Assembly: GCA_947561395.2 (NCBI GenBank)
Contig: OX387192.1
Span: 12,002,221 to 12,066,220, forward strand
Length of the DNA: 64,000 nt
Source of the DNA: Buxus sempervirens
Lineage: Eukaryota > Streptophyta > Magnoliopsida > Buxales > Buxaceae
Reading direction: 5' to 3'
Shown here: piece after piece, positions 561-44,386 of the stretch
How the letters are laid out: every line of letters begins with the position of its first letter
How positions within the stretch are numbered: position 1 is the first letter of the stretch
The notes under the pieces: generated by a model
Databases searched by the model: none
Seen by the model: the letters and a program-made list of their open reading frames with translations, nothing else
Told to the model about the DNA's origin: nothing
Position numbers and translations under genes: made by a program

Positions 561-679
561 CTTTGCAGGTAGAAAACTGCCAGCTTTCTCACACCCCATA
601 GAATCTACTGGGGCACCTTCAGAAGACCTCATTTTACAAATACCTTCAAGGACATCTTTCCATTTAGCAGGTGATTTCA
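561..679 (-). CDS. NTH1: NTH1 exon: endonuclease III homologue (DNA glycosylase/AP lyase), segment before the catalytic core
   Basis: NTH1 is a bifunctional base-excision-repair enzyme. It removes oxidised pyrimidines and cuts the abasic site through an HhH-GPD fold with a [4Fe-4S] cluster. The 119-nt exon gives 40 residues when the G left by the previous exon is added. It contains [17 protein letters not shown] and [16 protein letters not shown], which I recognise as the conserved block just before the helix-hairpin-helix core of plant NTH1 proteins. The acceptor is TTTGACACAG, after a pyrimidine-rich stretch. The donor is AAG|GTAAGG at 556-560, and the exon ends in phase 0. Its 5' phase (1) fits the two exons at 27684-27749 and 44323-44386. 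A LINE ends only about 100 bp upstream of the acceptor. The frame is also open 5' of the acceptor to an ATG at 746, so a longer exon cannot be excluded. The catalytic Lys and Asp exons lie beyond position 1. Confidence 0.85.
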
Positions 680-975
680 CTGTGTCAAATGAAAATAATG
701 ATTTAGATATCCTCTTAGAAGTTAGACTAGGAGATTGCTCATACATACATAATTAACCATGAAATCCAGAGCCAATTATATTTTTTTGATCAGTAATAGT
801 AGGAATTATATAAATAGTAGAAATAAAGAACATGTACACAAAAGGTGTACAGCAAAAAAGGAAAGAAAAGAAAAGACATAGCTTCCACAACATCATAAAA
901 TCCTTGAACGACACTACTTCCTGAAAATTCAGATCTTGGCAGGATTCCTTGGAAGATGACCAAAACAAAAACATC

Positions 976-1521
976 TTAGAACAGACTCAAATATCCTTGG
1001 ATAGATCTTGTTTTGTTGTCAAAGATTCTCCTGTTCCTCTCTTTCCATAATGTCCAGAATATTGCTGCTAGAGTCAAACTCCACATCACTTGCAATCTAG
1101 ATGATCCTCTTTCATTATTCCAGGAACTGAGTGCTTGCTTTACATCTTGAGGTTGAGCCCAACTTACTCCAAATCTTGATAGGAACGCATTCCAAGTCTC
1201 ATGTGCCACCGTACGATGCAACAGAAGGTGGTTCACTGTTTCTACATGAGATCTACATAAGGCGCATCTACTAGGAAGTTGCCATCCTCTTTTCATAAGG
1301 TTATCCACTGTTAGGATCTTCCCTGCTGCTATTGTCCACATGAAAAAACCTATTTTTGATGGTATGAGAGGCTGCCAAATCATATTTGATAAGTTAAAAC
1401 GCCAACCTTGCCCACATAAATGTAAGTAGAGACTCTTGACTAAAAAATCTCCAGCTTTTCCCCATCTCCACTTCATACAATCCAAGCCACTTCCCGGTGT
1501 TTGTCCATTAATCCTCTCCAA
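976..1521 (-). pseudogene. LINE A ORF2 C-terminus: zinc-binding RT-associated domain (zf-RVT)
   Basis: An open frame of 181 residues with the hallmark zf-RVT pattern of plant LINE ORF2: WQPLIPSKIGFFMWTIAAGK, then CALCRSHVETVNHLLLH, and later WTLWKERNRRIFDNK. The Cys-x2-Cys plus His-x-His-type spacing is visible. No RNase H domain follows. LINE B (11364-11629) and LINE I (60798-61355) carry close relatives of this domain, so these three belong to one lineage. Confidence 0.8.
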
Positions 1522-1717
1522 TAGGCAGCCAAGGGACTCAAGCTCCCAATCAAATTAGGCTCTTCTAAAATGCATGTTCCATGAGGCCCCTCCTCCTCCT
1601 TAGGAACACAAATCAGCAATATATGCTTGAGAAGATGAGGAAATTGTAAACAAATCTGGAAACTCCTCCTTTAGGGTAGACTTGCCACACCACAGGTCTT
1701 CCCAAAATTTGATCTGG

Positions 1718-4973: not shown

Positions 4974-5002
4974 AGTCCCCTCAATAATTTTTTCTACATC
5001 TT

Positions 5003-6458: not shown

Positions 6459-8350
6459 AATTTGATAGATCAACCCTAGGAAACCTCTTATAAATATACC
6501 AATTGAGATCCTATGGAGCTTCTATCTGCATTTTTATTTTGAGCATCATAGGATCATGACATGTATATAAAAAATCCAAACATGAGAACCTTGAAAAGTT
6601 TAACAGCAAATTTTTTAAGAACACTTGGCAAAATCCTATAGAAAGCTTCAAATAAAAGTGTAGGTAGATCATAGATGTGAACCTGAAATATACAGTCATT
6701 GGGATAGTTACAACAATTGGATTATGGATTCTTATGACTGTCTGCCATGCCTTTCATGGCCATGCAATTGAACAATATAGGTCCAATGGCATGTGAATAA
6801 TGGACCTGAAAAAGAATGGAACAAGAATTTCCTCTGGCTCATGATGATAAAAAATTCCACCAAGTCAGTTCCTGAACACACCAGGAATTGTCTATTAGAC
6901 AGGTCATAAGGGACCAAATGAATAAACACAAGAAAACATGTTCCCTCTTTGTCCCTGAGATGTCATATACGAAGTCTAACATCTCAACCTCAGATATGAG
7001 CGCAAGACTAAAACAACCATCCTCTAGCCAACCTTCAATCTTCAATCTTGGGTATATTCCATCACTCTCCATCTCCATGTCTTTTCTATTCTATGCAGTA
7101 CATAGAAGACTAGGAAATCACTATTCTTCAGGAAAATGTCTTTTCTTTCAGCTCCTGTGACTACTTCAAAATTAGTTTCTTACCTCATGCTAGAGGTTTT
7201 CAAAGCCATGTCTAACAACGTTTCTCTCGTAACCGCAGGTCAATTTCATTCATGCCAGCTGAAATGTCTTAAAGATTATTAAGTGGCATGCTCCACCTCC
7301 ATAGCAATGAAAATTTTGATGGATCCGTGGCTTCCCATGCAGAAAGAAATGGTATAGAAGCTGCTCTAAAGATATAACCATGCAGGTTTCAAGCCAGTTT
7401 AATTTATCTTAATGGAGCAGCGTGGTCCAACAGCAAAGGAAAAACTGAGCTTTAACAGCTATGTATTCAACATGTCAAAACAGTGGATGGAAGGAGAATC
7501 TAAATTGTCCAAGGATATATTTGACCAAAGCGTATCAACTATGCAGTGTACCCAACAAATCACTGAGGACATCTGCTTCACACATCATCAGATCACTTAC
7601 AGCCAGAGAGAAGCCAACCAAACAACCAACCACTTATCTAACTTGGGTCTTCATCAGACATGGCAAGCATGGAACTCATCAATCACTTCAGGAGATGGTG
7701 CATGATTACTCAATTAGACGATCTACTGTGTCATTCAACGAGGTTAGTTCAGTGTATGAGATCCTACAAGTGTATCTTACCAGAAGACTGAACCAGATCC
7801 CAAAACCCCTGCATGTCTGTCTTTGCTTTTTTTAAAGACTCTTATGGCATGAGGCAATGCGTTGGACCTTGTCTTGGAGCAAAACATAAACTTCAAAGCA
7901 TGAGGTGTGAGCCTAACAAAGGGCCTTTCTAATATATGAATAATTAACAGAATATATGAGGAATTAGTATAATCATTTAAATCATCTTTATAGGCCATTG
8001 ATCAGTGAAGATAGACTACCCAAACACTAAAGTATGATCTGCCATGCTAGACGCATTAGAAAATAAGCATAAACCGAATTATATAGTGTGCATAATTTAT
8101 AATATAAACAGAAAATTGACAAGATAATCACACAATAGTATAGTGGCACATGAGTGGATTGTAAAAATAAAAATACAAACAAACTTCGAATTCTAAAATT
8201 AATTTAAAGGATGTGAAAGTTGGATTCATTACTTGAGCATCTTAATGGGTGATCATTAACTCTTCAATACCTAATGATAGGTATTGATCTCCTAATTCCT
8301 GACGCCAGTAATCTTGTATATCTTCGATGTCACATTTTCGAAAGCTGTAT
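6459..8350. other. NTH1 intron sequence, nothing recognised
   Basis: AT-rich sequence between LINE A and a LINE fragment. Several short frames exist (such as 6839-7078 minus and 7412-7835 plus), but none resembles a known protein or has paired splice sites in frame. A stretch at 7185-7265 minus has an acceptor-like and a donor-like end, but it contains stops in all three frames. Confidence 0.5.
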
Positions 8351-8357
8351 ATCCAAC

Positions 8358-8700
8358 CACCTTTGGAAAGCTAAATTCCCCCTCAAGGTGAAGAAATTTT
8401 CATGAATTGCTTTTTTGAATAAGATCAATACCTTAGAAATTCTTTAGCATCGTAGGAAAACCTGGGCCATTTCACCACATGTTTCTACACTTCGTATGAG
8501 GGCTGGGGAGTCAGTGGACCACTTGCTGGTGCATTGTGACTTCGCTGGTTTTGTATGGACGAGATTGTTGTATATGTCAGGAGTACAGTGGGAAGTCTTT
8601 GTAAATTAACTGAATAGTAGTGTTTTCCACATATGTCTATAAAAGAGGGAGAAGGCTTTACTTGGGGGTATTCATTGCTACTATTTGGTTAGTGTGGCTG
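8358..8700 (+). mobile_element. LINE fragment K (zinc-binding domain only)
   Basis: The plus strand reads, with stops, LWKAKFPLKVKKFS, then FLNKINTLEIL and MRAGESVDHLLVHCDFAGFV. This is the zinc-binding RT-associated region of a plant LINE ORF2. No A tail or target duplication was found. It is a short, old fragment just outside the left end of the hAT element. Confidence 0.65.
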
Positions 8701-9505
8701 AACTGAACTCGACGTATCTTTGAGACTATTCATATCAAAAGAATAGTACTAAATATCATATCGTATTGCACGTATTATGTGATACACAATGTTTTGTTAA
8801 TTTGATAATTGACTGTATCATGAGATACAGTTGATACGCTACAGTATATCAATTGTATCACTCGATGCAGCTCATAACTTGCAAAAAACAAATAGAAGAG
8901 GTGATCAGAAGATTGATTACCTCTCCCAAACCAAAACCCCTTTCAAAAACCTCACACCCCATTCTTTAGCATACATTTTTGACCTAATTAGTGGAGAAAT
9001 TTCTGGAAAACAACTTCATTCCATGAATCAAAGCAAGTCACGATCGTGCACAATTTTGACAAGTATTGAAGACTTTCAATTTTTTTCATCTTGAAACATA
9101 TCTTTTTGTATTTATATATGATTTGAAAATTTTTCTATGAATCTATGAAATCCATGGATCCAAATTGCTTTTGAGAAAATAATCAAATTTTTAGATTTTG
9201 AGAAAAATGTAACAAAATATCTTCTGTTTTTTTTTTTAAAAAGCTATATAAAACTTATCAGTTTACATTAGAATTTTTTTATGCAATGTACATGGGGTTG
9301 ATCTATCACCCCCATGATTATTGCAATTTTTCATCAATAAAAATATTTTTAATAATTGTTTTTACATAATATTAGTTAAAAATATGGAAAAAAATTTTAA
9401 TTTTATTTAAATTTGATATTTGGGTATCAATTTTTTTCTTGGGAGGCTCGCATAACCGGATAATAGTCATAAGATGCTTGATATATTTTCAATTCTTTTG
9501 TAAAT

Positions 9506-9720
9506 ATGGCACCCAAAACGCAAAGAAGAGTAGCAGACATCGGTTGGCAACATGGAGAGATGTCTAAAGGAAATAGATTATGAACGAAATGCAAGTATTG
9601 CCATAAGGAGTTAAAAGAGGGTGGAATTACTAGATTGAAGCATCATCTTCCTAGTGGGAATCCTAATGTAGAGAGATGCTTCACCTGTCTTATAGAAGTT
9701 TCCAAGGCTATGGGTGAGCA
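9506..9720 (+). pseudogene. hAT 1 transposase: BED zinc finger
   Basis: The frame from ATG 9506 reads VADIGWQHGEMSKGNR, then after one stop CKYCHKELKEGGITRLKHHL. This is the BED finger that binds transposon ends in plant hAT proteins of the DUF659 group (Cys-x2-Cys and His residues visible). The frame is interrupted by a LINE fragment at 9725-9907 before the next transposase block. Confidence 0.8.
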
Positions 9721-9724
9721 TATA

Positions 9725-9907
9725 TTTTTTTTTAATCGGTAATAATAGATATCGTATATATATAAAACAAAAATAAAAGCAAGTACACAAATCGTGTACT
9801 GCTAGAGAAAGAAAATAATAAAAAGATTATAACAAGATAAACACCAGAACACCCAAAAGCCTAAAGCCCCACAATGTCGAGGAAAGAACTATAAACCAAA
9901 AACATAT
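9725..9907 (-). mobile_element. LINE N1: short 3'-end fragment
   Basis: A T run at 9725-9733 is followed by AATCGGTAATAATAG, the inverse of the LINE 3'-end motif CTATTATTACCGATT. About 170 bp of 3' untranslated sequence is present. Short matches (CATAT) on both sides may be the remains of a target duplication. It splits hAT 1 between the BED finger and the next block. Confidence 0.65.
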
Positions 9908-9954
9908 CCAGATTTGATAGAGATGGTAATGGGATTGCTGATGACCAACAAAAC

Positions 9955-11350
9955 ATGAGTTTAAGCACTGCTCTCTCAAGAAATACCTATTACGGCTACA
10001 AGGAGAAGGAAGACATTGTTATGGAGAAGGATGCTTTCATAGAGAGGTTAGGTCGGAGGACAACACAGGAGGATAGAGGAAAGAGTATTCGTGTAGATGA
10101 CAATGATACTGATGATGAGATAGAAAAGGTTATGACACAGGAGGAGAAAGAGCAGCTTGATGCAGCAATTAGAAGATCAATTGGGGATATTCACTATAGA
10201 GGGCAGAGAAGAAGCGTTGATATTGGTTTTACTCTCTGTAGAGATAGTTTTGGTGGGCACCGTGAACGTGGTTTGATGCATAGTACAAGTGTGGGAGAAG
10301 CTTTTGATAAAATGGTTGGAAAGTCCAAGAAACCAATGAAGAAGTCAAAGGGTCCTGATATAGAAGAGATAGATCCTTCAGTATATCGGAATAAGGATGC
10401 AAAACATATATGTTGAAGGATGTTTGGCATCCAAAAGCTATTAGTAGATGGTTTAGCTATGGTAATATCCCACCAAATGCTATAACCCTTAATACCGGAT
10501 GATGATTGATGAAATTGCCAGGGCTAGACTAAGAATTAAGGGTCCCACTCCATATGAGATCACAAACTCTATATTGGATATTGAGGTTGAGGAGATGCTG
10601 ACTTATATCAAATCATTCATGAAGGAGTGGGATACTTATGGTTTGACTCTCATGTGTGATGGCTGGACGAGGACTACTAGACATTTATGATCATAAACTT
10701 TTTGGTATATTATTATGGAAAAGCAATTTTCCACAAGTCAGTTAATGCTTCTGATTGAATCAAGGACCATTAATAGTTGTTCACCTTGATGGATGGGTTG
10801 CAAAGGAGATTAATGAGGAATATGTTGTACAAATTGTTACTGACAACCAATCTTCATACAAGAAATCCAACGAGTTGTTGATACAGAAAAAGAAGCATCT
10901 TTATTGGACCCCATGTGCTGCGCATTGTATCAATCTTATGTTGCATGATTTTGGTGATAAAAAGATGATGAAAAGTGTGCTTGAAAAAGCAAAAAGGTTG
11001 ACAAATTTTATTTGTAACCATAATTAGGTACTTACCCTCATGAGGGAGCACACTACAGGGGAGCTGCTTAGGTCAGGCGTCACAAGATTTACTACTAATT
11101 TTATTGCAAATAATAATACTATGTCTAAGAAGGCTGGATTGAGAAGAATGCTTTTATTAGATAAGTGGCAAGAATATTGGGCTAGCAAGAACATCATTGG
11201 AAAAAAGGTTGAAAATTTTGTTTTAAGCAACAATTTTTTGAATAATGGATGTTTGGTAGCTGTAACACATGATCCTATTATGAAAGTATTAAAGGTTATA
11301 GATAGAGAGAAACATGTCACAATGGGTTATGCATATGAAGCTATCAGAAG
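9955..11350 (+). pseudogene. hAT 1 transposase: DUF659 and RNase-H-like catalytic region
   Basis: Four consecutive frames (9955-10416, 10499-10690, 10755-11027, 11040-11350) match the plant hAT transposase. Visible blocks are RMFGIQKLLVDGL, ARLRIKGPTPYEI, YGLTLMCDGWT (the conserved Asp-Gly-Trp of DUF659), VVQIVTDNQSSYKKSNEL (a catalytic Asp block) and YWTPCAAHCINLMLHDFG (CxxH block). Several stops and frameshifts divide them, so no transposase is made. LINE B interrupts the gene at 11363. Confidence 0.8.
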
Positions 11351-11363
11351 TTATTAAGCTTAC

Positions 11364-13433
11364 CATCAAGATTTGGAATAAGTTGGGCTCAAACTCAAGA
11401 TGTAAGGCAAGCACTAAGTTCTTAGAAGAATGAAAGAGGATCATCTACATTTCAAGTGATGTGGAGTTTGACTCCAGCAGCAATATTCCGGACACTATGG
11501 AAAGAGAAGAACAGGAGAATCTTTGACAACAAATCAAGATCTGTCCAAGGCATATTTGAGTCTACTCTAAGATGTGTTATGTTTTGGTCATCTTCCAAGG
11601 AATCCTGCCAAGATCTGAATTTTCAGGAAAAGGAACTACCTTTCTTTCGGGGGCAGGATTATATTGATTAAGTCGGTCCTCGTGAATTTACCGGTCTACT
11701 TTATGTCCTTGTTCCGAATGCCTAATAAAGTGGTGACAATCATTGAAAAAGCACAAAGGAACTTTCTATGGGAGAGAGAGAGGAGGGGGGGGGATAAGGT
11801 GTGCTTGGGAAGAAAGCAGGGAAGTCTAGGCTTGGGCAAGGTGGTTGCCCAAAAACTCCTCTCTTCTAGCTAAGTGGTTGTGGCGCTTCAGCATAGAAAA
11901 GGAAAGTTTATGGCATCTGGTGATTATACTAGCAAATATGATAACAATGATAATGGATGGTTCATTAATCAGAGAGCACGTCCATTTGGAAATTGTCCGT
12001 GGAAGGACATCATGAGATTAGCATCCTCGTTCTATCCACATGTCAAATTGAGTATTGGGTCTGGGGTGTCTATTCGTTTCTGGAGGGATTTGTGGTGGGG
12101 TAGTTGTTTATTGTCGACTAAGTTCCGTCGTCTATTTCCTAATGCCCTCAATCCGAATGCTTCTGTGGCCAAAGTCCTATCCTGGTCACCATCTAGTATA
12201 TGATGTATATCATGGAACCTTCCTTTTAGGAGAGACCTTCATCCCCCCGAATTAGAAGAGATTGTTGTGTTGTTAGATAGTCTAAAGGAGGTGGTGATTG
12301 ATCCTCTAGATCATGATAAGGTTACCTGGTCTCTATCTTCTTCTGGCTCTTACTCATGCAAATCTTTCTTCAATTATATGAGTCAGAATCCTTTACATAC
12401 TAGGGTGCCTTTTCCTGTGTCTAGGCTATGGAAGCCCAAGGTACCTCTTAAGATCAAAGCCTTTCTGTGGATAGCCCTTTTGTATAAAATTAACACGGCA
12501 GACCAAATCCAGAGAAAATGGAAGATGAATATCTTGTCTCCGCAGGTGTGCTTTATGTGTATGGTGGCAGGGGAGAGCATTGATCATTTGTTTGTTCAGT
12601 GCCAGTTCGCGAGAGCCATATGGATGCGGGTGTTATAGGTGATTAAGGTGTCATGGGTTCTAACTGCTTCACTTCAAGATTGTTTTGTTCAGTGGCAGAT
12701 GAGGGGTTGGGGAAAAGAGGCCATACCATGTATAGAGGAGTGTTCACGCTGTTGTGTGGTTTATTTGGTTGGAGCGGAATGGAAGGATCTTCCGAGATAT
12801 TCGGTCAACGGTGGACCAGGTGGTTGGAAGCATTAAGGTAGCAATGGTGTCATGGGTTTCGGTTCTTCTAGAGTTTATGGATATTTCACCTTCAGATATA
12901 GTCAGGGAGTGGCATAGATGGTGCTATTCCACATCTACTGTGGAGGGTAGTTCGGCAAAAGGGATGGGTCCACGTTTATCATGGGATGTTGGGTAGTTTT
13001 GGTGGAGGGTGGTCAACCTTGGTACATTATTAAATGACTTGTTTAGTAATGAGCCAAGATACGTTGTAGACATGAGCTAGTGGGTGGTAATTATTTTCTT
13101 GGGAGGCTTTTTGTGTTTCGGTGTATAGGAGGGTTTTTGGTTGATTTATGGTCATGTTGACCTGGGCATTGAATTGTGTGGTATGTACAATTCTCTTTCT
13201 TTACTCACATATATATATATATATACACACACACATCTGCATTATTCATAAAAAGTAAAAATAAAAAAGATCTGAATTTTCAGGAAGTAGTGTCGTACAA
13301 GGATTTTATGATGTTGTAGAAGCTATCTTTTCTTTTCTTTCCTTTGTTGCTATATACCTTTGGTGTACATGTTCTCTATTTCTTCTATTAATATAAATTC
13401 TATTATTACTGATCAGAAAAAAAAAAAAAAAGA
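11364..13433 (+). mobile_element. LINE B: 5'-truncated LINE inside hAT 1
   Basis: This plus-strand LINE ends at an A run (13417-13431) after TATTATTACTGATCAG. A 12-bp target duplication, TATTAAGCTTAC, flanks it at 11352-11363 and 13434-13445. The piece 11364-11629 encodes the end of the zinc-binding domain (MMWSLTPAAIFRTLWKEKN) and is closely related to LINE A. LINE C is inserted within it, and the rest of LINE B (13287-13431) resumes with matching sequence. Confidence 0.9.
11630..13267 (+). mobile_element. LINE C: 5'-truncated LINE inside LINE B
   Basis: A perfect 19-bp target duplication, AGATCTGAATTTTCAGGAA, lies at 11611-11629 and 13268-13286. The element starts in the RT C-terminal region ([14 protein letters not shown]) and continues through the zinc-binding domain (RLWKPKVPLKIKAFLWIAL, then CFMCMVAGESIDHLFVQC). 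It ends without an RNase H domain in an A-rich tail after a (TA)n/(CA)n stretch near 13208-13233. Frames at 11664, 11874, 12267, 12639 and 12754 show that ORF2 is broken at several points, including a G run near 11785. Confidence 0.9.
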
Positions 13434-13439
13434 TATTAA

Positions 13440-14350
13440 GCTTACTATTGCTGTAGTTGCTCCTTCACATCACCAGGGATATCATGCAATTATTGATATA
13501 AGGTGTGACAACCAACTCATTCAAGACATCCATCATGCAGGTAATAATGGTAAGATATGACATTAAATTTGTTGTCAACTTCCTATCTTGATTACACCCT
13601 ATGAAGCAAGTTACGAATTTTTTTAATTCAATCAACATTTTACCTCCACCCAGCGTATCATTATGCTAAAGATCTTGGAAGTGACAAAAAATTAACCAAT
13701 GCATTCAAAAGGGTGATGTTAAGGTTGGAAAGGGGTCCGCAAGTGTTTAATGAGGTGATTTAGGACTTTTAATGGTCATTGAATTGTCATTGTTTTTTGT
13801 AATTAACAATCACTACTAGTGTTTCTTTAAGAAGAGAAAATATTTAAAGATGCTATGTTTGGCTTTGGAGATCCAACTGCTATTAGGGTAAAGACTACTT
13901 CCGAGCTAGGTAATACAAAATAAACAAATCAAAGTAGTTATTTCATTGTTTCAGTGGATTATATATGGGATTCATTTTTGTTTTTGGTTACTTGTAGCTG
14001 AGCGGTGGCTCTTGTATGGAACTGATGCACCAGATTTGAGAAGAGTTGCATTGAGACTTTTATCACAGACAACTTCATCAAGTGGATGTGAGTAAAAATT
14101 AGAGTACTTTTTCTCTCATCCACACTAAAGTGTAGAACCATTTGAGTTATATAAAGTTTGCTAAGCTGGTTTTGTAAACTACAATATCAACTAAAGATAA
14201 GACGTTCAGAAGCAAAACAAAAAGAGCAAGGGCAAGGGCGAGTTTAGGCCGATTGACCTTGCACATGTATTTGATGAAGATGAACTTCTTACGGAGTGGT
14301 TGAATAAACCAGATGAAATAGTGCTTGATGAATTGAATGATGAAGCCTAC
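13440..14350 (+). pseudogene. hAT 1 transposase: C-terminal dimerisation region
   Basis: After LINE B the hAT gene resumes in three segments. These are VVAPSHHQGYHAIIDIRCDN near 13450, KDLGSDKKLTNAFKRVMLRL near 13672, and ERWLLYGTDAPDLRRVALRL followed by LSQTTSSSGCE near 13998-14090. The last is the hAT dimerisation signature. A final block, PIDLAHVFDEDELLTEWLNK (about 14250-14310), is the usual C-terminal extension. Introns and stops separate the pieces. The palindromic hAT 2 interrupts after about 14370. Confidence 0.75.
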
Positions 14351-14628
14351 CAAGCCAAGTGGTTATGAGGACGAGACGGGCTAGGCCAACCCGATTTGCC
14401 TAAAACAATTCAATAAAATTCAAAAAGAATTCTAAGAAAATGCATAAAAATCCTAAAAATTAAACAAAAAATATGTATGCCTAAAGGGGTTAAAATTTTG
14501 AAGATGGGCTTAAAAAAATGGCATTTAGAATGCAAAACTCTTCGATAATGAGGTATTTCATATCTTATGTAAACAAAAGTTGTGAACATTGAACATAATA
14601 ATACAATAAACATCATATGCACAAATAT

Positions 14629-16592
14629 TGTAGAATCCTGAATTTTGAGGATATAATAATATAATTTTAAATCTGAAAATTTTGGAAGAAATTTAGTTAT
14701 TAAATATGGTTTAAATAAAGAAAGAATATTTTTGTCTTTTTCTAGAGAGTCAATTAGTAAACAAATTAATTTATTAATTATCAAATCTGAAATATTCAAT
14801 TAAATCTAAGTTGAGTTTAAATTGGATTTAAATATCATGATTTATAGTATAATAGGTGAGAAAAAGGCCTATTAGTAATTATACTTAATGAGGGGCCTTA
14901 AACTTGGAAATAAGAGAGATTTTGGACAATTTTGGTAATATTTAAAAATAGGGAATTAAAATAGCATGAAGATTGATTAAAATATAAGTTTCTTTTATTT
15001 GGGACTTTGGAAAGAGGATTTAGAAAGAGAGTTGTGATAAAATAGGAAACTTGGATTAATAGGAAAGTTTCCAAGTAAGATTAGGACTCATAATTAGGCA
15101 AGAGTATAAAAGTAGGAGTTAGAGAGAATTTAGGGTTTCTTATTCTTTTAGGTGGATTCATACGGCTGGAGGAAAGAGAGATAGAGAGATGGGTTGACCG
15201 AAAAAGAAGAAGAGGAAGATCAAGGAGAAAGAAGGAGAATGAAAAGAGAGAATTTCATGTGGATTTAAGTTGAGAGAAAAGCTTGCTGATTTCATGAGAT
15301 TGCAAGAGGGCATTATTTGAGATCTTTTGGTTAAGATTTGATCAGAGGAAACAAGTCAAGTAGCCCCTTTAAACTTGCATTAAAACCAGTTTCTGATTTC
15401 TTAGGATTCATGTTTATACGCATGATTTATTGGAATTTTGATGATCAAATGTTTGTATGTTGTGATTTATTTGTTTTGGATTGATTTGGTATTTTAGAAG
15501 TGATATTAGATGATTTAGAATTGATTTGAAGTGCTGAAAATAAGATATATAGTTTTAGTTTGAAATTTCGGAAAGTTTAGAAAAAAATTAAATTTTTGCG
15601 AATTTGTACGGTCGCCCAATTCTTGCTCTAGCTCCAACTCAGGCGCCCTTTCGAATAGGTTTAATGTATTGTGGACACCTGATATAGGTCAAGCGTCCCA
15701 CCTGTGTATTTATTTTAAATTTGAACCCGAGAGTTGGATTTTAAGGATTTGTACGAGCGCTCAATATGAGGCCCAAGTGTCACCTTGAGTGCCTAGAAGT
15801 TCTAAAACCCAGATTTAGTCACCCGACCCATCGCTTGAATGCGATAAAGAGTAGCATTGCCTAGCTTGATTTTGAAATGACGCTCAATATAGCGCCCTAC
15901 CCACATCGAGCTCCCGAACCCTGATTTTCAGGAATTAGATCATTTGACCTAGTTTTTTATTCTAAACTTATTTTTACGGATTTTCAACTCATGTACCAAC
16001 TAGATTAGAATATTTTGAGAGTATTTGCATTAGCCAAAACTTAATTTAGATTTTATAAGGATTTTTGGTACGTTTTGCCCAAGTAACTTATATTTTGGGG
16101 TTTTGGGTAAACATGTGGATTTCTTTCAACTTAAGAAGTGTTTATTGTTTTCAATACTTGCATTTGAACTATATGAACATGTTTTGAGTGTTAGAATGAG
16201 TTAAACTGAAATTGAACTTAATTTGAGTATTCTAACCATGTCTTGGCTTATGGTTTGAAAAGATAAGATTTATAGTTACCCTACTTTTGTATGTATGTCT
16301 CCACGTATGTGACTTCGCGTATGCAGTTATTTGTAACGTATGTCGTTTACCCAGTATTGGTGCTTTGATTCACCCATGTATTTGTGATGAAATTATTGGT
16401 GATTATAAATGTGGCTGGATGGTCTCGATCTATGTACTCAGTGGACCAATAACGACAATCCACTTTCTCGATCTGTGTACTCAGTTGAAAGTGGGGTTGC
16501 ATTATCCTCGGTTTGTGTACTCGGCGAGATATACTTCCTCGATCCGTGTACTTGATGGGAAGATTGTATTGGTAATTTGTTTATTATCCTCA
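14629..16592. mobile_element. Solo LTR, probably Ty3/gypsy
   Basis: Starts TGTAGAATCC and ends ATCCTCA where similarity between the palindrome arms stops, giving about 1.96 kb. It has a TATA-like GTATAAAAG near 15110 followed by a leader-like stretch, and a four-fold repeat of CTCGATCTGTGTACTC type near 16424-16560. Both are common in long plant gypsy LTRs. No matching second LTR or internal coding region is present, so it looks like a recombined remnant. The flanks are not a target duplication, because the hAT sequence on its two sides is not contiguous. Confidence 0.55.
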
Positions 16593-17537
16593 TAATTTGT
16601 TCGGCTCCAATCTTTCGGTCACACGCATTAATCCTTCCCTAATCTCATTGTGTGCAGACATGTTATAATTATATTAGACACTATACATTTCTTATGAATC
16701 ATTGGCACCAAATATGACTAAAAAGAAATATACCTGCAACATGGATATCCTGATGAAACTGCTTGTCCCATTTTTTGTCAATGATGTCCGAATATCGTTT
16801 ATAGTGCTTCAACGATTCTTTTGTTTCCAATTTGGCTCTATCGATTGTTTCACATAAGATGGGAATCATTGGCTTTTATCTTTGATCCACTAGCTTCAGA
16901 ACCTTTGCTAGTCACTCCATGACCTTAACAACGTATTCAATCTTTGGCCATAAGTTTTTACTAAGGTCAAGCTCCACAAATTCCTTTCCCTCAGCCTTCT
17001 TTGTTTTTGACAACCACACCTGATTCTGAATTCGATGCTACTCATCCAATACAAACAACTGCTTCAAACTAGCTTGATATCAAAGCAAGACTAAATATAT
17101 ATATGAACTCCATACAAAAACTTGTAGTGCCGAGTCTCAGTAACTCTCAGCCCTTAGTAAACCTTGCCTTCATTAAATTTACTAACCGTGAACTATTTTA
17201 AATGAAGGTGGTTATCTTCTTCCTTAGCACAAGTCTTTTCTTAATCCTCGGCATTTTTGACATGTCCTCAAGTATCAAGTCGATAATGTGGATGGCATAT
17301 GGAGTCCAATATAAATGCTTTTTCTTTTCCATTAACAATCGTCCAATTGCTTTATATGATGCTTCCTTGTCACTGATGACCTATTAGGGTAGAAAAACAA
17401 TTTATGATATAAACAAATTACCAATTTGTAATTAAATGATAAACTCTAAATAAACCTTATAAATAAAAACGAAGTAAATTAAATACCTGAACGACGTTCT
17501 CCTCCCTTACCTCTTCAACCATGTCATCCATTAACTT

Positions 17538-22665: not shown

Positions 22666-22667
22666 CA

Positions 22668-23065: not shown

Positions 23066-23102
23066 GTATCGGGTTGGGCCGATACTGAGAATTTAAACCT
23101 TG

Positions 23103-25760: not shown

Positions 25761-26097
25761 GCATTATGGAAGATTTTATGTATTGTTGTCTTAAGTTTTA
25801 TATGGATGAATTTTTCAACTTTATTTATTAGTTTATCTAGCCTATTATACCTTTTTTTAATCTTTAGCTAGTGCTTACAAAGTTTTCATTCATCTTCACG
25901 TATGCCTATAATGCACCAATATTCTCTGTGTAGACCTATAATGTCAAAAACATGTTTATTTGTCATATTTTTAGCTTATCTTTCTATCTAGATAGGTTTT
26001 GTTTTATGTATCCACCATTTTATAGCGTATCCCATACATAACCTGATATTTATCAACTTTTCAATCGGTCGATACGGCACACTGGCATGATATTTTG

Positions 26098-27683: not shown

Positions 27684-27749
27684 CTTTTGGGCTAGTGGAA
27701 GAAACCTCACTTCCAGTTGTAAGCACATTTCTGGAGGGTTCTGATGGTT
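27684..27749 (-). CDS. NTH1: NTH1 exon, N-terminal linker (22 residues)
   Basis: A 66-nt interval is bounded by a strong acceptor (CATTACTCTGCAG) and a donor (CCAAAAG|GTATTTTT). With the G left by the exon at 44323-44386 it reads EPSEPSRNVLTTGSEVSSTS, then PK, and leaves one G for the 561-679 exon. Both sides are phase 1, so the exon can be kept or skipped without changing frame. It is Ser/Thr-rich and falls in the poorly conserved linker between the DIEEFAY block and the [13 protein letters not shown] block, so sequence similarity alone does not prove it. The open frame also continues upstream as a hydrophobic stretch (about 27790-27860) that I do not include. Confidence 0.55.
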
Positions 27750-30966: not shown

Positions 30967-31483
30967 TAGCTTGGCTTCTCTAGCTTCTCCACTCTTCTAT
31001 CATCTTTGATCAGATTCTTTCTTCACATGAATTGATATCGTCAATGGCTACTCCCTTGGAAATCTGGTGGGTTCTAGAGTTAATGGTGTTTTTTTAGATG
31101 ACAAGGGCAATATAATCTTATTTAATGTTCTGCATACTAGGACAGGGAGATGCATTAAAGCTGAACTTGAGGAAATATTGTTCTTTCTGAAGAAAGTGAG
31201 GAGACCGGATATAGTCCTGTAGTGAAAGGTCATTCATCCACCATTATCTCAATTGGGCTAGAAGTTGCATTGTCAAATGATGGAGGTTACAAATTGGATT
31301 TTATTATTCAAATGATACTCACCTTTGATAAACACATCTTAAATTTTGAAGAAGGTAATTCCTTTAGCACACCAATGGATTGCTAAATGAAAATATGTGG
31401 AATGCATCTAGGTTGCAACTCCAAGTGGGATCTATGGATCCATCTCTTTCAACCCAAATTAAAGGGAGTCGAGAAACCTAATC

Positions 31484-31890
31484 TTATTTGGAGGACTCAG
31501 AAGTTGTTGGAAGAAGTAAGAAGAAGTCAGAAATCATTGAGGTGCTAATCAGTTCTTGCAACCAAGAGTCTGTATCAGTACTTCCCATTATTGGTTTTGG
31601 CGGCCTTGGTAAGACCACACTAGCTAAATTGGTCTGCAATGATGAGTTGGTGGTGAGGTATTTTGACATTAGAATTTGGGTTTGTCTCTGATAACTTTCA
31701 TGTCACCACAATTTTAAGCAAAATCTACAAGTATGTCACTAAAAGTAACATAAAAAGCAGAGATTTGATAGTACAGATTCTTCAAGAAAAGCTCAGTGGG
31801 AGTGTTAGATGACGTCTAGAATGAGGATAATGAGTGGAAAGATTTGAAAGCACCACTGGTATTTGGTGCAAGTGGAAGCAAAATTAAAAT
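31484..31890 (+). pseudogene. NB-ARC (CC-NBS-LRR type) resistance-gene fragment
   Basis: The frame 31488-31691 contains SVLPIIGFGGLGKTTLAKLV, the P-loop of the NB-ARC ATPase, preceded by SEVVGRSKKKSEIIEVL, the block before the P-loop in non-TIR plant NLRs. After breaks, the sequence continues with RIWVCL and DNFHVTTILSKIYK, then VLDDV and NEDNEWKDLKAPLVFGASGS, the kinase-2 region and the start of RNBS-B. There is no coiled coil, LRR or start codon, and stops are present. It is a short remnant of an immune receptor gene inside the interval bounded by the Harbinger ends. Confidence 0.85.
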
Positions 31891-32550
31891 GAAATGCAAT
31901 TTGTTTGATGTAGTTTAAAATTCCTCATAAAAGATTAAACCTTGGCAACCTCTCTATGTAGTGCAACTGCCATCCCATTTATAGACTCAAGGCCTTGTTT
32001 TGTGCTTACTCTTTTATGCTCAAAAGAACACAAAGGGAATATTTAAACAACTTAGATTTTTCCCTTTGTTCTTGTCTTTTAATTTTTTCATTTTTTCTCC
32101 TTGTCTTATTACGAAGAATTTCTTGTATGTAAACACCAAAAAAGTGGCTATTTCTTTTGGAAATATATAGAGTCCCGAAGTAGTATGAAACCCAATAGAT
32201 AAGAAGAAATTTATGGTGGCTAGTTGGCAATGCTATCTCTTGTGTAACAACTTTTGGTTAGCCTGCTTTTCGACAACCTGTGACCCAAGCTCACCCATCT
32301 GTCCTATGTAACTTAGAAGTCTTAATAAAATCATTGTTCTTGTTTGTTATGATTTTGTTGGTTCCTTACATAAAATCAATGTCCATGAAATTTATCCATT
32401 AGTAATCTGCTTTATAACTTATATGACATGTTCAATTGTTGCCAACTTATATGGTTTGAATTCTAAAAAACTGAGAGAACATACTTTATAAATATTCTCC
32501 CACTATATCCTAATATGTTGGCTATAATCCTAATATATCTATGTTGACTA
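31891..32550. other. AT-rich stretch between NB-ARC remnant and Harbinger ORF1
   Basis: No coding sequence, repeat or splice signal that I can support. It may be 5' sequence of the Harbinger ORF1 or unrelated sequence. Confidence 0.4.
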
Positions 32551-32554
32551 GAGA

Positions 32555-33503
32555 TACTGACCTTGAAGAGGTTGAAGCTGCCACTTGGACAACAAAAAAT
32601 GAGCAAGTATTTATCGAACTTATTGGTTGACCATGGAAAAAGAGGAAATAGGCCTACATGGGATGAGTTCTTTCAAAGATCAGAAAATAAGTATACAAAA
32701 GATCAATTGAAGAAAAAGTATAATAATCTAAAGGTAAAATATAGGGATTTCAAGCTAGTGGAAAAAGAAAGTGGATTTTGGTGGGACCCAAAAATAAAGA
32801 ATGTCATTGCCTAGGATGAGAAATGGGAAAATTATATAAATGTAGATATCACTCAATCCATCTTAAATATACATTAATTCAATATTATTTTATTTTAATA
32901 CTTTATATTTTGATTAACATACAAATTTGCAAATATTAGGCAAATCCGAATGCAAAAAAACTACATAGGTCAGGGTGCCCAATGTATCCAGAGCTATGTA
33001 TCATGTATGATGATACAAGTGGAGAAGGATACAAGACTATCCTTCTCTTAATTTTAATAAAATTGTATTTACCTATCAGAAAAAAAAATACAATGGATCC
33101 TCCACCTAGTGAGGATGAGTTCCATTTAGAGGATATCAATGTGGTGGTGAAGTCTACTAATGATGTCAAGGAGGATGATCCTATTTTGGATGATGCCCCA
33201 CAAAGGATACAGCTAGTAGTAGCAAAACAAAGAAAGGAGTCAAGGACTATAGAGTTGTCTAATTCAATTCGTATGATTGCTGAAGCATATATGGCTATAG
33301 CCACTACATTGACTCGATTGGCACCCAAGTACACAATTGGTGAATGTATTAAATGCCTTGAACAGATGGACGGTTGGACACTTGATGGGACATTAAGGCA
33401 ATCGAGAAGTTTCAATCCAAAGGTTGGAGAGAAGCTTTTATGGAAATGTCAACAAAAGGGAGCGCCATTTGGTTGGCTTCTCTACACTAAACTTTTTAGA
33501 TAA
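32555..33503 (+). pseudogene. Harbinger ORF1: Myb/SANT-like DNA-binding protein
   Basis: The first segment reads ATWTTKNEQVFIELI, then GKRGNRPTWDEFFQRSENKY, KKKYNNLKVKYRDFKLVEKE and SGFWWDPKIKNVIA. This is the Myb/SANT-like domain of plant PIF/Harbinger ORF1. After a likely intron (about 32850-32938) the frame from 32982 has MYPELCIMYDDTSGEGYKT, the conserved block that follows the domain. The C-terminal frame reaches a stop at 33503 with EAYMAIATTLTRLAPKYTIG. ORF1 and the transposase act together on the element ends. There are breaks in the first segment (a frame change near 32615 and a stop near 32814), so it is probably inactive. Confidence 0.75.
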
Positions 33504-34511: not shown

Positions 34512-34834
34512 TGAAACCGAGCAGGAAACAAAAGACAAAAACACTGCAGAGAAAGGGGGAAAACTCAGACTACTTTTCTTACCTTGAAACAAAAGATATA
34601 CAATGTTTTTATAGGCTAGGTTCTGTAACAACAGCGCCTTATTCTAGGAAAGAAATTAAAAAAAAAAAAAAAAAAAGAACTAAATGGAGAGAATCAAGGT
34701 GATTCAAACCATTTTACAGCTATCAATTACAATCAATCAAACAGATATTACAACTGGCAACCATATTTAGAAAACAACCAAATCTGGATTTTATCCTTAT
34801 TTTGGAAAGTAAAGATAATCCAAGATTCTCTACA
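34512..34834 (-). repeat. Ty1/copia 3' LTR
   Basis: A 323-bp terminal repeat, matched by 42750-43055. It includes an A run at 34656-34677 that is much shorter in the other copy. On the minus strand a purine-rich tract (GTTGAGGAG) precedes it, as expected for the polypurine tract that primes the second strand. Confidence 0.85.
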
Positions 34835-36868: not shown

Positions 36869-37252
36869 AGAAACATAGTACTTATGTGTTTCTGGTGAAT
36901 AACACTTGTACCCTTTTTGTATAGGAGAATATCCTAAGAAAATACATTTTCAGGCTTTAGGGTCAAGTTTACTCCTATCATTATCATGGATATGAACAAA
37001 AGAAGTACAGCCAAAAACTCTTAGAGGAATTGAAGAGATAGATTGAATGTAAGGTAGGCTTTAAGGAAACAGTTTAAAGGTGTTTCATAATTGAGAGCCC
37101 AGGTTGGCATTCTATTTATTAGATAACAAGCAGTTAGGGCAGCATCCCATCAGAAATATTTTGGAACATTATTTGTGAACATGATGACCCTAGCAACTTC
37201 GAGAAGGTGACGGTTTTTTCTTTTAGCAATGCCGTTTTGTTGTTGAGTTATT

Positions 37253-40001
37253 TTTTTTGATAAGTAATGATATTTGATTAAGAAATGAGGAGTACATAGT
37301 ACCTATGAGAAAAATACAAGTATGGGGATCCCTTTTCAGAAACAAATCGAAAAGGGAGAATGAACTATAACCTATTCATGTGAGCTAGCCACCACCCAAA
37401 TATACACCAAAAGCCAAGAAACAGAAAAAAACCATCCCATGTACAATGCTAACAACAAAAAGAACCAGCTTTCTAGGCTGAACACATCCCAGAAAACTCA
37501 TCTATAATCGGCCCGAAATAGAAGTCTGATCTCCTTGCTCCATGCTTTGCTAGTCTATCCGCTATTCCATTTGCTTCTCTAGGTACGTGGCTGAACGAGG
37601 CATTCAGATCACGTGCCAAGAATCTTGCGCAACTGATGATGTGGGATAGCCTCCATGACCCTAGGTCCTCCTGACGCATCCATCTCATGATTGTAGTCGA
37701 ATCTCTTTCAATAATGCAATGTGAAAAACCCCTTTTATTAGCCTCTATGAGACCAAACAAAAGGGCCATCATCTCCGCACGAGTAGAGTTACCATCTCCC
37801 ACTGGACCACTGAAGATGAAAATAATCATCCCCGTACTATCCCTTCCCACTCCACCAATGCCTGAAGGTCCAGGATTGCCTAAGGAGCTGCCATCAACGT
37901 TTATCTTCATAATGCCAGTCGTAGGTGCTTTCCAAGAAACCCCACTCCTTGCCTTTGCCCCAATGGAAGAGAAGCAACACACCATCCAATCTCTCAAAAT
38001 TTGGGTGCAACTCCAATCTCGAAATTCCGAAGTGACAAATGCCCAGAAAGCTACATCCATTAGGATTTTATCAATCACTTGTTCCCTACTAAGAAGGGCA
38101 TCCCGGAAGATCCTCCGGTTGCGCTCCAACCAAATATACCATGTCACTGCATGGAAAATCCACCCATATAAAATGCAGCCCTTGCTCCCTAAACCCGGAA
38201 TCCTCCACTGCTGGAAAAAGTCTCCAAGTGATGTAGGTAAGACCCACGGAATATCAATCATTTGAAATAGACGACTCCATATTTCTCTAGAGAAATGGCA
38301 GTGAAGAAAGATATGGTCAATATCTTCACCTGCTTCCTTGCACAGAAAGCACATGTTGGGTAATAAAACATACCTTCTCCACCTTCTCTGTAACATATCT
38401 GCCGTGTTTATGCTGTACGAAAGAGCAGTCCAGAGAAACGCCTTTATTTTTGGGGGCACCCTAGGTTTCCATAGTTTTGAGGCTGAAAAATATGCAAGTG
38501 GGGCATTGAAATCAGGACGATGAGAGGCAAAAAAGGATTTACATGAAAAAACCCCAGAGGAGGACAAGGTCCAAATAACCCTATCCCTGGATTCTGGGTC
38601 AATAAAGCAATCTTTTAAAGAATCAACAAGAGAGGCCAGATCCAGAACTTCATGAGATCGTAAGTCCCTTCTAAATGATAAGTTCCAAGCAAGACCCTCG
38701 TTAGACCAAGTCAATATATCAGAAACCAGAGCATTAGGAAGATTGGCAACAAGAAATAAAGATGGGAAAGAGGTGGCTAAGGGAGAATCCCCCACCAAAG
38801 GTCATGCCAAAAGAGAACAGAGGAACCGGATCCAATGCAAAGACGGAGGTGAGGATAGAAAGTGTCTCCCAGTCTGACCACAGCCTTCCATGGGCATGTA
38901 CCCGTAGGCCGAGCCCGCATCTTAATGGTCCACCGATTAACCCCTCTTCCGTATTTGTGAGCTATCACTTGATGCCATAGGCTTTCCTGCTCAAAGCTAT
39001 AACGCCACAACCACTTAGCCAAGAGAGATAAATTGCGAGAGGCTAGATTCCCAATGTCCACCCCACCCCTTGCCTTGTCTTTGCAAACCATTTTCCATTC
39101 AACCAGGTGAGACTTCCTTTCTCCTCCACCTTCCTACAAGAAGTCTCTTTGGGTTTTCTCAAGAGTGTCCACTACCCTTTGAGGCATCCTAAAAAAAGAC
39201 ATGTAGTATACAGGAAGGTTGGCTAATACCGCTTTGATTAATGTGATTCTACCCCCCCAAAGACAGATAATTACTCTTCCACCTGGCCAATCTCTTTTCC
39301 ACCCTTTCAATGACCGGATCCCAAAAGGTTGCCGATCTAGGAGAAGCGCCAAGAGGCAAACCAAGATAAGATATAGGGAGGACACCTATGCGACATCCGA
39401 GCACTCCGCTAAGGTTTAGAGCAACTGAATCCTGAAGGTTAAGACCAACCAGCATACTTTTTGCCCAATTGACTTTCAAGCCCGATAACATGTGGAAAGT
39501 ATGCAGAATACTCTTTAACCATAGAATCTGATCCGTAGATGCCTCTAGAAAAACTATGGTATCATCCGCAAATTGGAGATGAGACACTTGGAGAGCATCT
39601 CTTCCAATCGTGAAACCATGGAACAATCCCCTAGCCACTGCGCTATCCAAGAAGCAATGTAGCACCTCCGCCACTAATGAAAACAGAAAAGGAGACAAAG
39701 GGTCCCCTTGCCGCAAACCCCTAGAGGACTCAAATAGACCCACCACTGATCCATTTAGCAAGAAAGAGAATTGAACTTTACTCAGACATCCCATGATCCA
39801 CTTTCTCCATCGAAACCCGAAACCTTTCCACTCCATCACAGCATCCAAGAATTTCCATTCCACCTTATCAAAGGCTTTCTCTAGATCCAATTTGCATAAT
39901 ACTCCCGGACGGCCTGAACGACGTTGAGCATCTACACACTCATTAGCGATAAGAGCACTGTCCATAATTTGCCGCCTCTTAATGAAAGCACTTTGGGATG
40001 G
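37253..40001 (-). mobile_element. LINE D: 5'-truncated LINE inside the copia element
   Basis: An 18-bp target duplication, TTTTGTTGTTGAGTTATT, lies at 37235-37252 and 40002-40019. The minus-strand A tail is a T run near 37251-37258, followed by GATAAGTAATGATATTTG. The element carries the RT C-terminal half, the zinc-binding domain and an RNase H domain. Similarity to LINE G (50057-52900) is high throughout, including the 3' end. It splits the copia integrase region. Confidence 0.95.
37473..38798 (-). pseudogene. LINE D ORF2: zinc-binding domain and RNase H
   Basis: A 441-residue open frame. Residues about 100-170 hold KLWKPRVPPKIKAFLWTAL, then CFLCKEAGEDIDHIFLHC (zf-RVT). Residues about 295-425 hold the RNase H domain with KINVDGSSLGNPGPSGIGG (first catalytic Asp), STRAEMMALLFGL (Glu), CIIERDSTTIM (second Asp) and HVPREANGIADRLAKHGARR. 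The catalytic positions appear intact. The upstream RT is in other frames, so the frame is not part of a working ORF2. Confidence 0.85.
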
Positions 40002-41543: not shown

Positions 41544-41930
41544 CAGTGGCGTGCCGCCGAAATTTCATTTTTTTTAGGTAATGATGCGTTTCTAAAGGAG
41601 AAAATTGCTTAATTGCATCGCTGGCGATTTTTTGCGACATGCCAACAAAACAGGGTGGCATGCCAAGCGAAATAGAGCGAAACGGACAAAGCGGGTGAAA
41701 CAAAGGAGGGAAATTAAAATTTGTTTATTTTTATTGGCAAAATGGAGCGGCGTGCCGGCGAAACGGAGCAGTGTGCTGGTGAAATTTCCCCAAAATCTAA
41801 AAAATCTAGTTTTTGTCCATTTTTTTTGCCCTTTTATTTTTCCATCGTTTCAGCGGCACGCTCGCAGCATGGCGGCGAAATTTTGTTTTGGGCCATGGGC
41901 CGCCCATCGGCACCGAAACGGTAAACCTTA
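41544..41930. mobile_element. MITE M2: non-autonomous hAT element (387 bp) in copia gag
   Basis: The element starts CAGTGGCGTGCCGCCGAAAT and ends with the inverse of TAAGGTTTACCGTTTCGG. An 8-bp target duplication, ATTGGGCT, lies at 41536-41543 and 41931-41938. The inside has repeated GGCGTGCCGGCGAAACG-like motifs. It is the longest of the four copies in the window and is non-coding. Confidence 0.85.
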
Positions 41931-42737: not shown

Positions 42738-42749
42738 GCTCTGATACCA
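42738..42749 (-). promoter_or_regulatory. Ty1/copia primer-binding site
   Basis: On the minus strand TGGTATCAGAGC lies directly after the 5' LTR end. It is the classic plant copia site complementary to the 3' end of initiator-Met tRNA, which primes first-strand DNA. Confidence 0.9.
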
Positions 42750-43055
42750 TGAAACCGGCAGGAAACAAAAGACAAAAACACTACAGAGAAAGAAGGAAAA
42801 CTCATACTAATTTTCTTACCTTGAAACAAAAGATATAACATGTTTTTATAGGCCAAGTTCTGTAATCACAGCCCTTTATTCTAGGAAATAAATAAAAAAC
42901 TAAATGGAGAGAATCAAGGTGATTCAAACCATTTTACAGCTATCAACTACAATCAATGAAACAGATATTACAGCTAGCAACCATATTTTAAAAAAAAAAA
43001 CCAAATCTGGATTTTATCCTTACTTTGCAAAGTAAAGATAATCCAAGATTCTCTA
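42750..43055 (-). repeat. Ty1/copia 5' LTR
   Basis: A 306-bp terminal repeat matching 34512-34834. It carries a possible TATA-like ATAAAAAC on the minus strand near 42847. The outer end is followed by TTATC, the probable target duplication, and then by the Harbinger transposase. Confidence 0.85.
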
Positions 43056-43830
43056 TTATCTTATGTAGGAATGCATTGGAACAATCGATGGAACACATTT
43101 CAGTGCTTGCGTTCCAACAAACAAGCAAATTCCTTATCATGGAAGAAAGACTATCACCACCCAAAATGTAATATCTGTATGTTCTTCTAGTATGAAATTT
43201 AAGTTTGTCTATACAGATTGGGAAGGCACAGTACATGATTCTTGAGTACCTCTGAATGCAATCAATAATCCAACTCTAAACTTTCCTCACCTGCCTCCAG
43301 GTATATGCATTTCTAATTATGATGTTGAGTTACAATATAAAATCATATTTTTACTAACAATTATTATGCTTCCTTAGGTAAATTTTATGTTCTGGATTAT
43401 GAGAATGCCAGGTTATTTCACGCCTTATGGTGGAGAGTGTTATCATCTAGGGGAGTTTAAAGGAAGAAATCGACAACGTAGGACATCCAAAGAATTGTTT
43501 AACCATGTTCACTCCTCATTGCATAATATGATAGAGCTTTGCTTTGGGGTGTTGAAGGCTTGATTTCCCATATTAAAACTTATGCCGTCGTAACCCCTTC
43601 GAACTCAAGGTTATATTGTTATTGCAGCATGCACACTTCATAACTTTATTAGAAATGAGATGTAAAGAGATTAATTATTTGAAAATTTTGAGAAAGAGGA
43701 ATTGGTTATTCCAAGTGAAGGCAAGTAAGATGTTATAGATCCCCCTGAAGAAAGTTCACAAGCAGCTAGACGAAAAGAAGTGACAATACTAAGAGATAGA
43801 ATTGTACGAGAGATGGCAAGATCTCATGGT
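43053..43830 (+). pseudogene. Harbinger transposase, C-terminal DDE part
   Basis: The sequence resumes with IGTIDGTHFSACVPTNKQIP, the first catalytic Asp block (GAIDGTH in relatives). YHGRKTITTQNVISVCSSSM and FVYTDWEGTVHDS, the second Asp block, follow. After a likely intron (about 43302-43379) it reads GKFYVLDYENAR, PGYFTPYGGECYHLGEFKGR and LFNHVHSSLHNMIELCFGVL (final Glu region), then ACTLHNFIRNEM. Most of the motif residues remain, but stops are present. A transposase cut from its N-terminus by 8.5 kb of copia could not be made. Confidence 0.8.
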
Positions 43831-44322
43831 ATGCAAGTTGTATAGGATATGAGTAATTTGGTCATATTATTTAGACCCATTAAGATGGTTATTATCCTTT
43901 ATTTTAGTAGTATAATTATAGTATTATTCCTTTCACACTGGTTGATGTAAATGATAGTACTTTTTCTATGATCCTTTTAGAATGCATTATGCATCATTAT
44001 GTACAGTCCTTATAGAAGGCTTTATGCATCACATCATGTAAGTTAATATAAGAAAAATAATCAAATTTCAATTGCTTACCAAATGCAATTTTATAGATTT
44101 TTAAAGATTGTAATTGAGTTTGACTTAAATGTTACCACACAAGTTTCGCTTGAACTATTTTTAAAAAAAAAAAAAAAAAAAAAAACAATTTGAAAAGTTT
44201 TTAGTTTTCAAATTGTTTATAAAAAAAAAATTAACCTTTTATAGTTTACATGAGTTATGTATCATGTATGCAATTTATGAGTTAATTGTATATTCATATA
44301 ATATTGAAGAAAAAGATCTTAC

Positions 44323-44386
44323 CTGAGTGCATAGTCCCATTGGCCTTTCCATATGCAAATTCTTCAATATCAGGTAAGCCACCAAG
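44323..44386 (-). CDS. NTH1: NTH1 exon with the DIEEFAY block
   Basis: A 64-nt exon with acceptor TTTTCTCTGTGCAG and donor CACTCAG|GTAAGA. It reads LGGLPDIEEFAYGKANGTMH, then S and one spare G. The PDIEEFAYGK block is conserved in the N-terminal region of plant NTH1 proteins, before the linker and the [19 protein letters not shown] block. It ends in phase 1, which fits both the 27684-27749 exon and the 561-679 exon. The exon upstream, with the start codon and basic N-terminus, was not found between here and the right edge. Confidence 0.75.

Follow-up and report, generated by a model that had tools for sequence, protein, structure and literature searches.

A single-copy NTH1 gene of Buxus sempervirens with four giant introns probably inflated by transposons

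The best explanation for the 64,000-nt stretch of Buxus sempervirens DNA analysed here (the window; OX387192.1:12,002,221-12,066,220, on C15 of the 676.5-Mb assembly) is, with good confidence, a single-copy NTH1 gene that specifies a full product of 378 residues and in which LINE, copia, hAT-type and Harbinger-type insertions have swollen each of introns 2 to 5 to 16.6-35.3 kb. A preliminary description of the window had proposed three minus-strand NTH1 exons in one frame, lying 16.6 and 27.0 kb apart and joined in phase 1 throughout. AG acceptors and GT donors are found at exactly the proposed bases, the two gaps measure 16,573 and 27,004 bp, and the frame of the trio runs stop-free into exons outside the window; both introns within the trio are indeed in phase 1, whereas its outer edges are in phase 0. 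The gene itself turned out to be larger than described, with 11 coding exons and four giant introns spread over 112 kb rather than three exons and two giant introns. Splicing across giant introns is needed for the full enzyme, as had been supposed, but the window contains neither the HhH-GPD domain nor the start or stop of the gene.

The window and its flanks form 164 kb of contiguous sequence without a single N, and window-scale coordinates are used here beyond both edges. In the joined gene model, the 11 coding exons of NTH1 lie in order on one strand (minus) of one contig, and the gene measures 111,898 bp from the ATG through the stop codon. The coding frame is 1,137 bp (378 residues), its sole stop is terminal, and it makes up 1% of the 112 kb; the introns total 110,761 bp. 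From intron 1 to intron 10 the lengths are 115, 35,338, 16,573, 27,004, 27,323, 1,305, 206, 77, 1,696, and 1,124 bp, so that the four consecutive giants, introns 2 to 5, account for 96% of the intron sequence, while the remaining six measure 77-1,696 bp. The parts of the gene are as follows.

80097-79962 (window-scale), minus strand: exon 1, upstream of the window, found with an N-terminal NTH1 query at E 1.3
79846-79725 (window-scale), minus strand: exon 2, upstream of the window, found with an N-terminal NTH1 query at E 2.3e-4
44387-64000, minus strand: in-window part of giant intron 2, which is 35,338 bp as a whole and runs on to window-scale 79724, with exon 2 beyond
44323-44386, minus strand: exon 3 (LGGLPDIEEFAYGKANGTMHS), AG acceptor and GT donor, phase 0 at its start and phase 1 at its end, a single match in the genome
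27750-44322, minus strand: giant intron 3, 16,573 bp
27684-27749, minus strand: exon 4 (EPSEPSRNVLTTGSEVSSTSPK), AG acceptor and GT donor, phase 1 at both ends, a single match in the genome
680-27683, minus strand: giant intron 4, 27,004 bp
561-679, minus strand: exon 5 (40 protein letters), AG acceptor and GT donor, phase 0 at its end, a sole match in the genome; the alignment with human NTHL1 starts here
1-560, minus strand: in-window 5' part of giant intron 5, which is 27,323 bp as a whole, with exon 6 at window-scale -26763 to -26829
-26763/-26829, -28135/-28226, -28433/-28570, -28648/-28752, -30449/-30532, and -31657/-31800 (window-scale), minus strand: exons 6 to 11, downstream of the window, the last ending with the stop

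Nine of the 10 introns are of the GT-AG type; intron 6 is GC-AG (donor gcaagt), which belongs to a normal minor class in plants. Thus 19 of the 20 splice dinucleotides are of the commonest type. Exons 1 and 2 were located by relaxed similarity to N-terminal NTH1 sequences, and they are supported by matching phases and by the joined frame rather than by a database match. A motif scan for exon 1 had returned transposon and low-complexity frames and missed the exon, which relaxed similarity then located. The chosen ATG is the first to follow a stop in the same frame, giving a protein that starts MSLIFVRNPIIPFAYARINLK, and translation may start at Met22 instead.

The translation of exons 3 to 11 carries three Pfam domains, PF00730 (HhH-GPD; E 3.2e-21), PF00633 (HHH; E 8.3e-10), and PF10576 (EndIII_4Fe-2S; E 8.3e-5). 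Compared with solved structures in the PDB, the same translation matches human NTHL1 at E 1.2e-69 and the best adenine glycosylase at 4.3e-14, the nearest structures being of the NTH type and not MutY. The sequences LPGIGPKMAH and VDTHVHRI are present and aligned with human NTHL1, in agreement with the motifs LPG-x-G-x-K and VDTHVHR, whose Lys and Asp, respectively, have catalytic roles. The iron-sulphur motif C-x6-C-x2-C-x5-C is found in exon 11 as CTPLRPRCGICSISDLC. On these matches the locus is identified as NTH1, an endonuclease III-type (HhH-GPD) DNA glycosylase. The HhH-GPD domain occupies residues 177-305 of the 378-residue model and lies entirely within exons 6 to 11, exons 1 to 5 providing residues 1-169 only.

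The size of the giant introns was set against control genes of the MutS_V, Rad51, Cpn60/TCP-1, and DNA polymerase B families, in which adjacent exon pairs continuing the same profile were taken (the rows used were 17 of 18 for DNA_pol_B and the full 42, 22, and 89 for the other three families). Over 76 such pairs, several of them non-independent because they belong to near-identical duplicates, the median gap is 301.5 bp and the largest 4,443 bp; a further 27 looser pairs, in which exons may have been skipped, give gaps of up to 10,285 bp. The one DNA_pol_B row left out has gaps of 525 and 1,224 bp and does not affect the maximum. All four giant introns of NTH1 (16.6-35.3 kb) are therefore longer than every control gap in this set, which consists of conserved housekeeping genes and is not a random sample.

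The transposon content noticed earlier in the introns was borne out by LINE domains, by a copia reverse transcriptase with its LTR pair and primer-binding site, by DUF659 at two places, and by a Myb/SANT-like piece. Searches against Pfam detected LINE reverse transcriptase, RNase H-like and zf-RVT domains and the copia reverse transcriptase in the NTH1 introns; beyond the window edges, introns 2 and 5 hold more LINE pieces. The LINE block at about 48.6-61.4 kb is also inside NTH1, because intron 2 covers 44387-64000. The principal elements are listed below.

53235-58372, minus strand (sense to NTH1): LINE of about 5.1 kb in intron 2, with RVT_1 in an open frame of 911 residues
34512-43055, minus strand (sense to NTH1): copia-type LTR element in intron 3, with a reverse transcriptase domain, LTRs at 34512-34832 and 42750-43055, and a primer-binding site at 42738-42749, directly inside the latter LTR
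37248-40000, minus strand: LINE inside the copia element of intron 3, with RNase H-like and zf-RVT domains
32548-32811, plus strand: Myb/SANT-like piece of Harbinger type in intron 3 (PF12776, E 1e-11)
16598-20853, strand not assigned: inverted pair of element arms in intron 4 (arms in 16598-19081 and 19137-20853), the second with DUF659 at 20017-20286 (E 1.2e-9)
11626-13264, plus strand (antisense to NTH1): LINE fragment in intron 4, with inverted similarity to the LINEs at 48.6-54.9 kb and an open frame at 12204-12635 on the plus strand
10493-11024, plus strand: hAT-type transposase pieces (DUF659) in intron 4, at 10755-11024 (E 2e-22) and at 10493-10687 (E 9.3e-8, under the curated cut-off)

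DUF659 is taken here as a hAT component, and this type of Myb/SANT domain as a PIF/Harbinger component. The one dated insertion is the copia element of intron 3. Between its LTRs, 23 of 303 gap-free positions are mismatched (K 0.080), and assuming 1.3e-8 to 4e-9 substitutions per site per year, the insertion is about 3-10 million years old. Among the matches scored, copies of this element at C9:18680632-18685686 and C3:52447452-52450995 are without the inner LINE; their matches break at 37252 and restart at 40099 (C9) and 40002 (C3), and the two flanking matches of the C3 copy share 18 bases, as expected of a target-site duplication. The LINE is thus nested in the copia element. Also among the matches scored, the nested LINE has siblings at 95% identity over its length and 97% over a shorter match, the LINE at 53235-58372 has relatives at 92% over nearly its full length and 96% over shorter matches, and the LINE fragment of intron 4 has siblings at 91% over its length and 93% over a shorter match.

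Genome-wide DNA searches with intron 3, with positions 8000-27683 of intron 4, and with the window part of intron 2 gave 3,815, 6,643, and 3,387 first-look candidates, respectively, and among those scored (39, 39, and 28) one LINE predominates in each of the three queries. Similarity to another place within the 164 kb extends over 56.5%, 27.7%, 28.3%, and 21.7% of introns 2, 3, 4, and 5, values that are not a TE fraction. Searches of the window for Rfam families at gathering scores and for tRNAs returned none. Repeated and partly nested insertions of LINEs, copia, hAT-type, and Harbinger-type elements would have produced the swollen introns 2 to 5, and the gene would span 112 kb because transposons enlarged these four introns.

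Since the coding pieces look intact, the plant probably still makes the NTH1 enzyme. Under neutral decay since the copia insertion, and on the assumption that CDS and LTRs mutate alike, the coding exons should have gathered about 1.8 stops, 1.6 splice-dinucleotide losses, and 2.5-3.75 frameshifts, or about 5.9-7.1 disabling changes in total. The chance of finding none is 0.0008-0.003, or 0.034 if substitutions only are counted; with the GC donor of intron 6 counted as one damaged site, the probability of no more than one change is 0.006-0.019, or 0.15 for substitutions only. The estimate speaks against an old pseudogene and is compatible with recent loss, as it is blind to any loss later than the copia insertion.

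A recently dead gene, lost after the dated insertion and so still open in frame, with no full transcript owing to early polyadenylation in a transposon or to promoter loss, is an unlikely reading. In its favour, each giant intron holds 18-39 sense AATAAA motifs (sense/antisense 20/45, 18/21, 35/30, and 39/51 in introns 2 to 5); the sense/antisense counts were dropped as evidence because the base composition of LINEs is skewed. A direct repeat that starts 4.2 kb upstream of the ATG, its 2,280-bp copies being 99.74% identical, looks like a young LTR element of 21 kb. A nearer repeat-like stretch at 80322-80672, present in introns 2, 3, and 4 too, comes to within about 225 bp of the ATG on its upstream side and might disturb or replace the NTH1 promoter; a shorter similarity lies at 80164-80227. 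The GC donor of intron 6 was set against a working gene, so that confidence in the latter is slightly lower and recent loss slightly more probable than otherwise. Arabidopsis with both NTH genes knocked out shows no overt phenotype, according to a review (PMC10573277), and a plant therefore need not keep NTH1 functional. Against recent death stand the open frame of all 11 exons, the near-uniform splice dinucleotides, the decay estimate, which disfavours death before the copia insertion, and the fact that this is the sole NTH1 detected in the assembly. Large-intron genes of grapevine, moreover, are described as having EST support (PMC3058033).

If the gene is working, as the intact coding pieces suggest, its pre-mRNA would be transcribed across 112 kb and the giant introns removed by ordinary splicing; a strict ratchet pattern for recursive splicing occurred 0 times in sense and 0 times in antisense across the four giant introns. 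A transcript ending in introns 2 to 5 would be without the enzyme domain, since the HhH-GPD domain comes from exons further downstream. The transposons may be silenced without halting transcription, by analogy with IBM2-type machinery in Arabidopsis and rice, in both of which transcripts are polyadenylated early inside heterochromatic introns once IBM2 is lost (PMC7145194). In rice, heterochromatic introns are long and tend to lie towards the 5' end, and their genes are affected by OsIBM2 loss (PMC7145194); in a 39-gene subset of grapevine, the large introns are for the most part 5' introns (PMC3058033). The giant-intron arrangement of NTH1 fits this IBM2-type heterochromatic-intron class by analogy.

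Another reading, which we consider very unlikely, is that the invasion divided NTH1 between two transcription units, one giving a full-length, organelle-targeted form and the other a short form. The full-length form would need all four giant introns to be spliced, and the short form would have a promoter in intron 4 and a start at Met146 in exon 5, keeping the whole HhH-GPD domain and lacking the targeting peptide.

A compact working NTH1 elsewhere, of which the present exons would be a dead or incomplete copy, was one of the outcomes that the preliminary description had named as fatal to its proposal, and it is highly improbable: no supporting point was found, and three protein searches of the 676.5-Mb assembly revealed no second NTH1 copy or fragment. 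The whole 378-residue model gave 11 matches, one per exon, with no others at E up to 1 (all 14 first-look candidates were scored), exon 5 alone matched only itself, and a catalytic-domain query matched six places within the NTH1 exons and one place on C4 at E 0.835. As the search with the whole protein matched these exons alone, no compact copy was found elsewhere, and NTH1 is, judged from these searches, single-copy in the assembly. The sole match in a search for the HhH-GPD family, at C12:39046878, is a frame of 375 residues without VDTHVHR and without the four-cysteine motif, and was rejected as NTH1; it resembles an AlkA-type glycosylase. That family search was silent at the NTH1 locus, which presumably reflects the distribution of the domain over several exons. 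An assembly artefact in which wrongly joined contigs created the exon spacing is barely credible, given 11 exons in order on one strand with phases agreeing over 112 kb, the absence of N in the 164 kb, and the resolution of intron 3 into a coherent nested insertion.

The analysis corrects the model of a gene that could readily be fragmented in automatic annotation, exons 3 to 5 being isolated among tens of kilobases of transposon-bearing sequence. The splitting of large-intron genes by annotation has been described for grapevine (PMC3058033). NTH1 also offers a single-copy case for asking how transcription and splicing stay accurate across silenced transposons; on its own, it does not change ideas on intron or repair function.

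By its Pfam and PDB matches, Buxus NTH1 shares an enzyme family with Arabidopsis AtNTH1 (At2g31450) and human NTHL1. The AtNTH1 gene is compact in Arabidopsis, in contrast to the 112 kb in Buxus. One NTH gene was found here, against two in Arabidopsis (PMC10573277). The literature searched on plant NTH1, introns, and transposons, which excluded most subscription journals, yielded no report of a giant NTH1. Very long introns as such are known from other lineages: in gymnosperms, introns of more than 20 kb are numerous and linked with transposons (PMC9364684), and in the endoparasite Sapria, introns of more than 100 kb occur in 23 genes and very long introns in many highly expressed genes (PMC10246380). 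In grapevine, ESTs revealed 2,697 introns of 3-100 kb that are more than 80% repeats, with LINEs and copia prominent; about 30% of the intronic LTR pairs there are more than 99% identical (PMC3058033), whereas the one dated copia element of NTH1 is older. The rice genes regulated by IBM2 resemble NTH1 in having long TE-bearing introns near the 5' end, and they are transcribed (PMC7145194). A further close parallel is MSH1, a gene for organelle DNA repair of which most species have one copy; it is longer than 50 kb in 34 species, and its longest intron is 101,025 bp (PMC10487979). Like Buxus NTH1, it is a mostly single-copy DNA-repair gene with conserved coding sequence and TE-driven giant introns, and its expansions are listed in orchids, gymnosperms, Nelumbo, Vitis, and Liriodendron, among others (PMC10487979). 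Unlike the MSH1 cases, the gene here is NTH1, the genome is 676.5 Mb, and the swelling is confined to introns 2 to 5 of 10; Buxus NTH1 is a rather extreme case of the TE-swollen plant genes, a kind already published.

Members of one small repeat family lie both within the giant introns of NTH1, the minus-strand gene for an endonuclease III-type DNA glycosylase, and just 5' of its start; these copies, which could bear promoter sequence, are as follows (80322-80672 being window numbering extended to the right).

Copies of the small repeat family
41551-41929, copy in the copia element of intron 3
22791-23003, copy in intron 4
63855-63952, copy in intron 2
80322-80672, copy 5' of NTH1 that stops some 225 bp short of the ATG

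Farther out, at 84281-105235 on the same extended scale and to the right of the window, is a 2,280-bp direct repeat, whose copies are 99.74% identical and start 18.7 kb apart. As judged from sequence, it looks like a candidate LTR element of about 21 kb that is very young, and it begins 4.2 kb 5' of the NTH1 ATG.

In the control families searched genome-wide, a lone RAD51/DMC1-like exon (profile 18-54 or part) was found at five places (C19:15304939, C19:15364808, C21:13017066, C10:20587927, and C19:34605957, by assembly contig), besides a multi-exon RAD51/DMC1-like gene at C21:226989-230279; capture and subsequent spread of one exon is possible. Five similar copies with MutS_V, all on the same strand, lie inside a stretch of about 430 kb at C14:7.50-7.93 Mb, one of them carrying a TAG within the match.

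Within NTH1 itself, intron 6 is of the GC-AG type (donor gcaagt at -26829, window numbering extended to the left). Intron 4 contains, at 16598-20853, two inverted hAT-type arms separated by 55 bp at the centre, with blocks that are 79-95% complementary, and RNA from these arms might, from its sequence, form a long hairpin within the intron. Intron 3 holds a short open frame on the plus strand (31482-31691) with the P-loop stretch GFGGLGKTTLAKLV, which presumably resembles a fragment of an NB-ARC disease-resistance gene.
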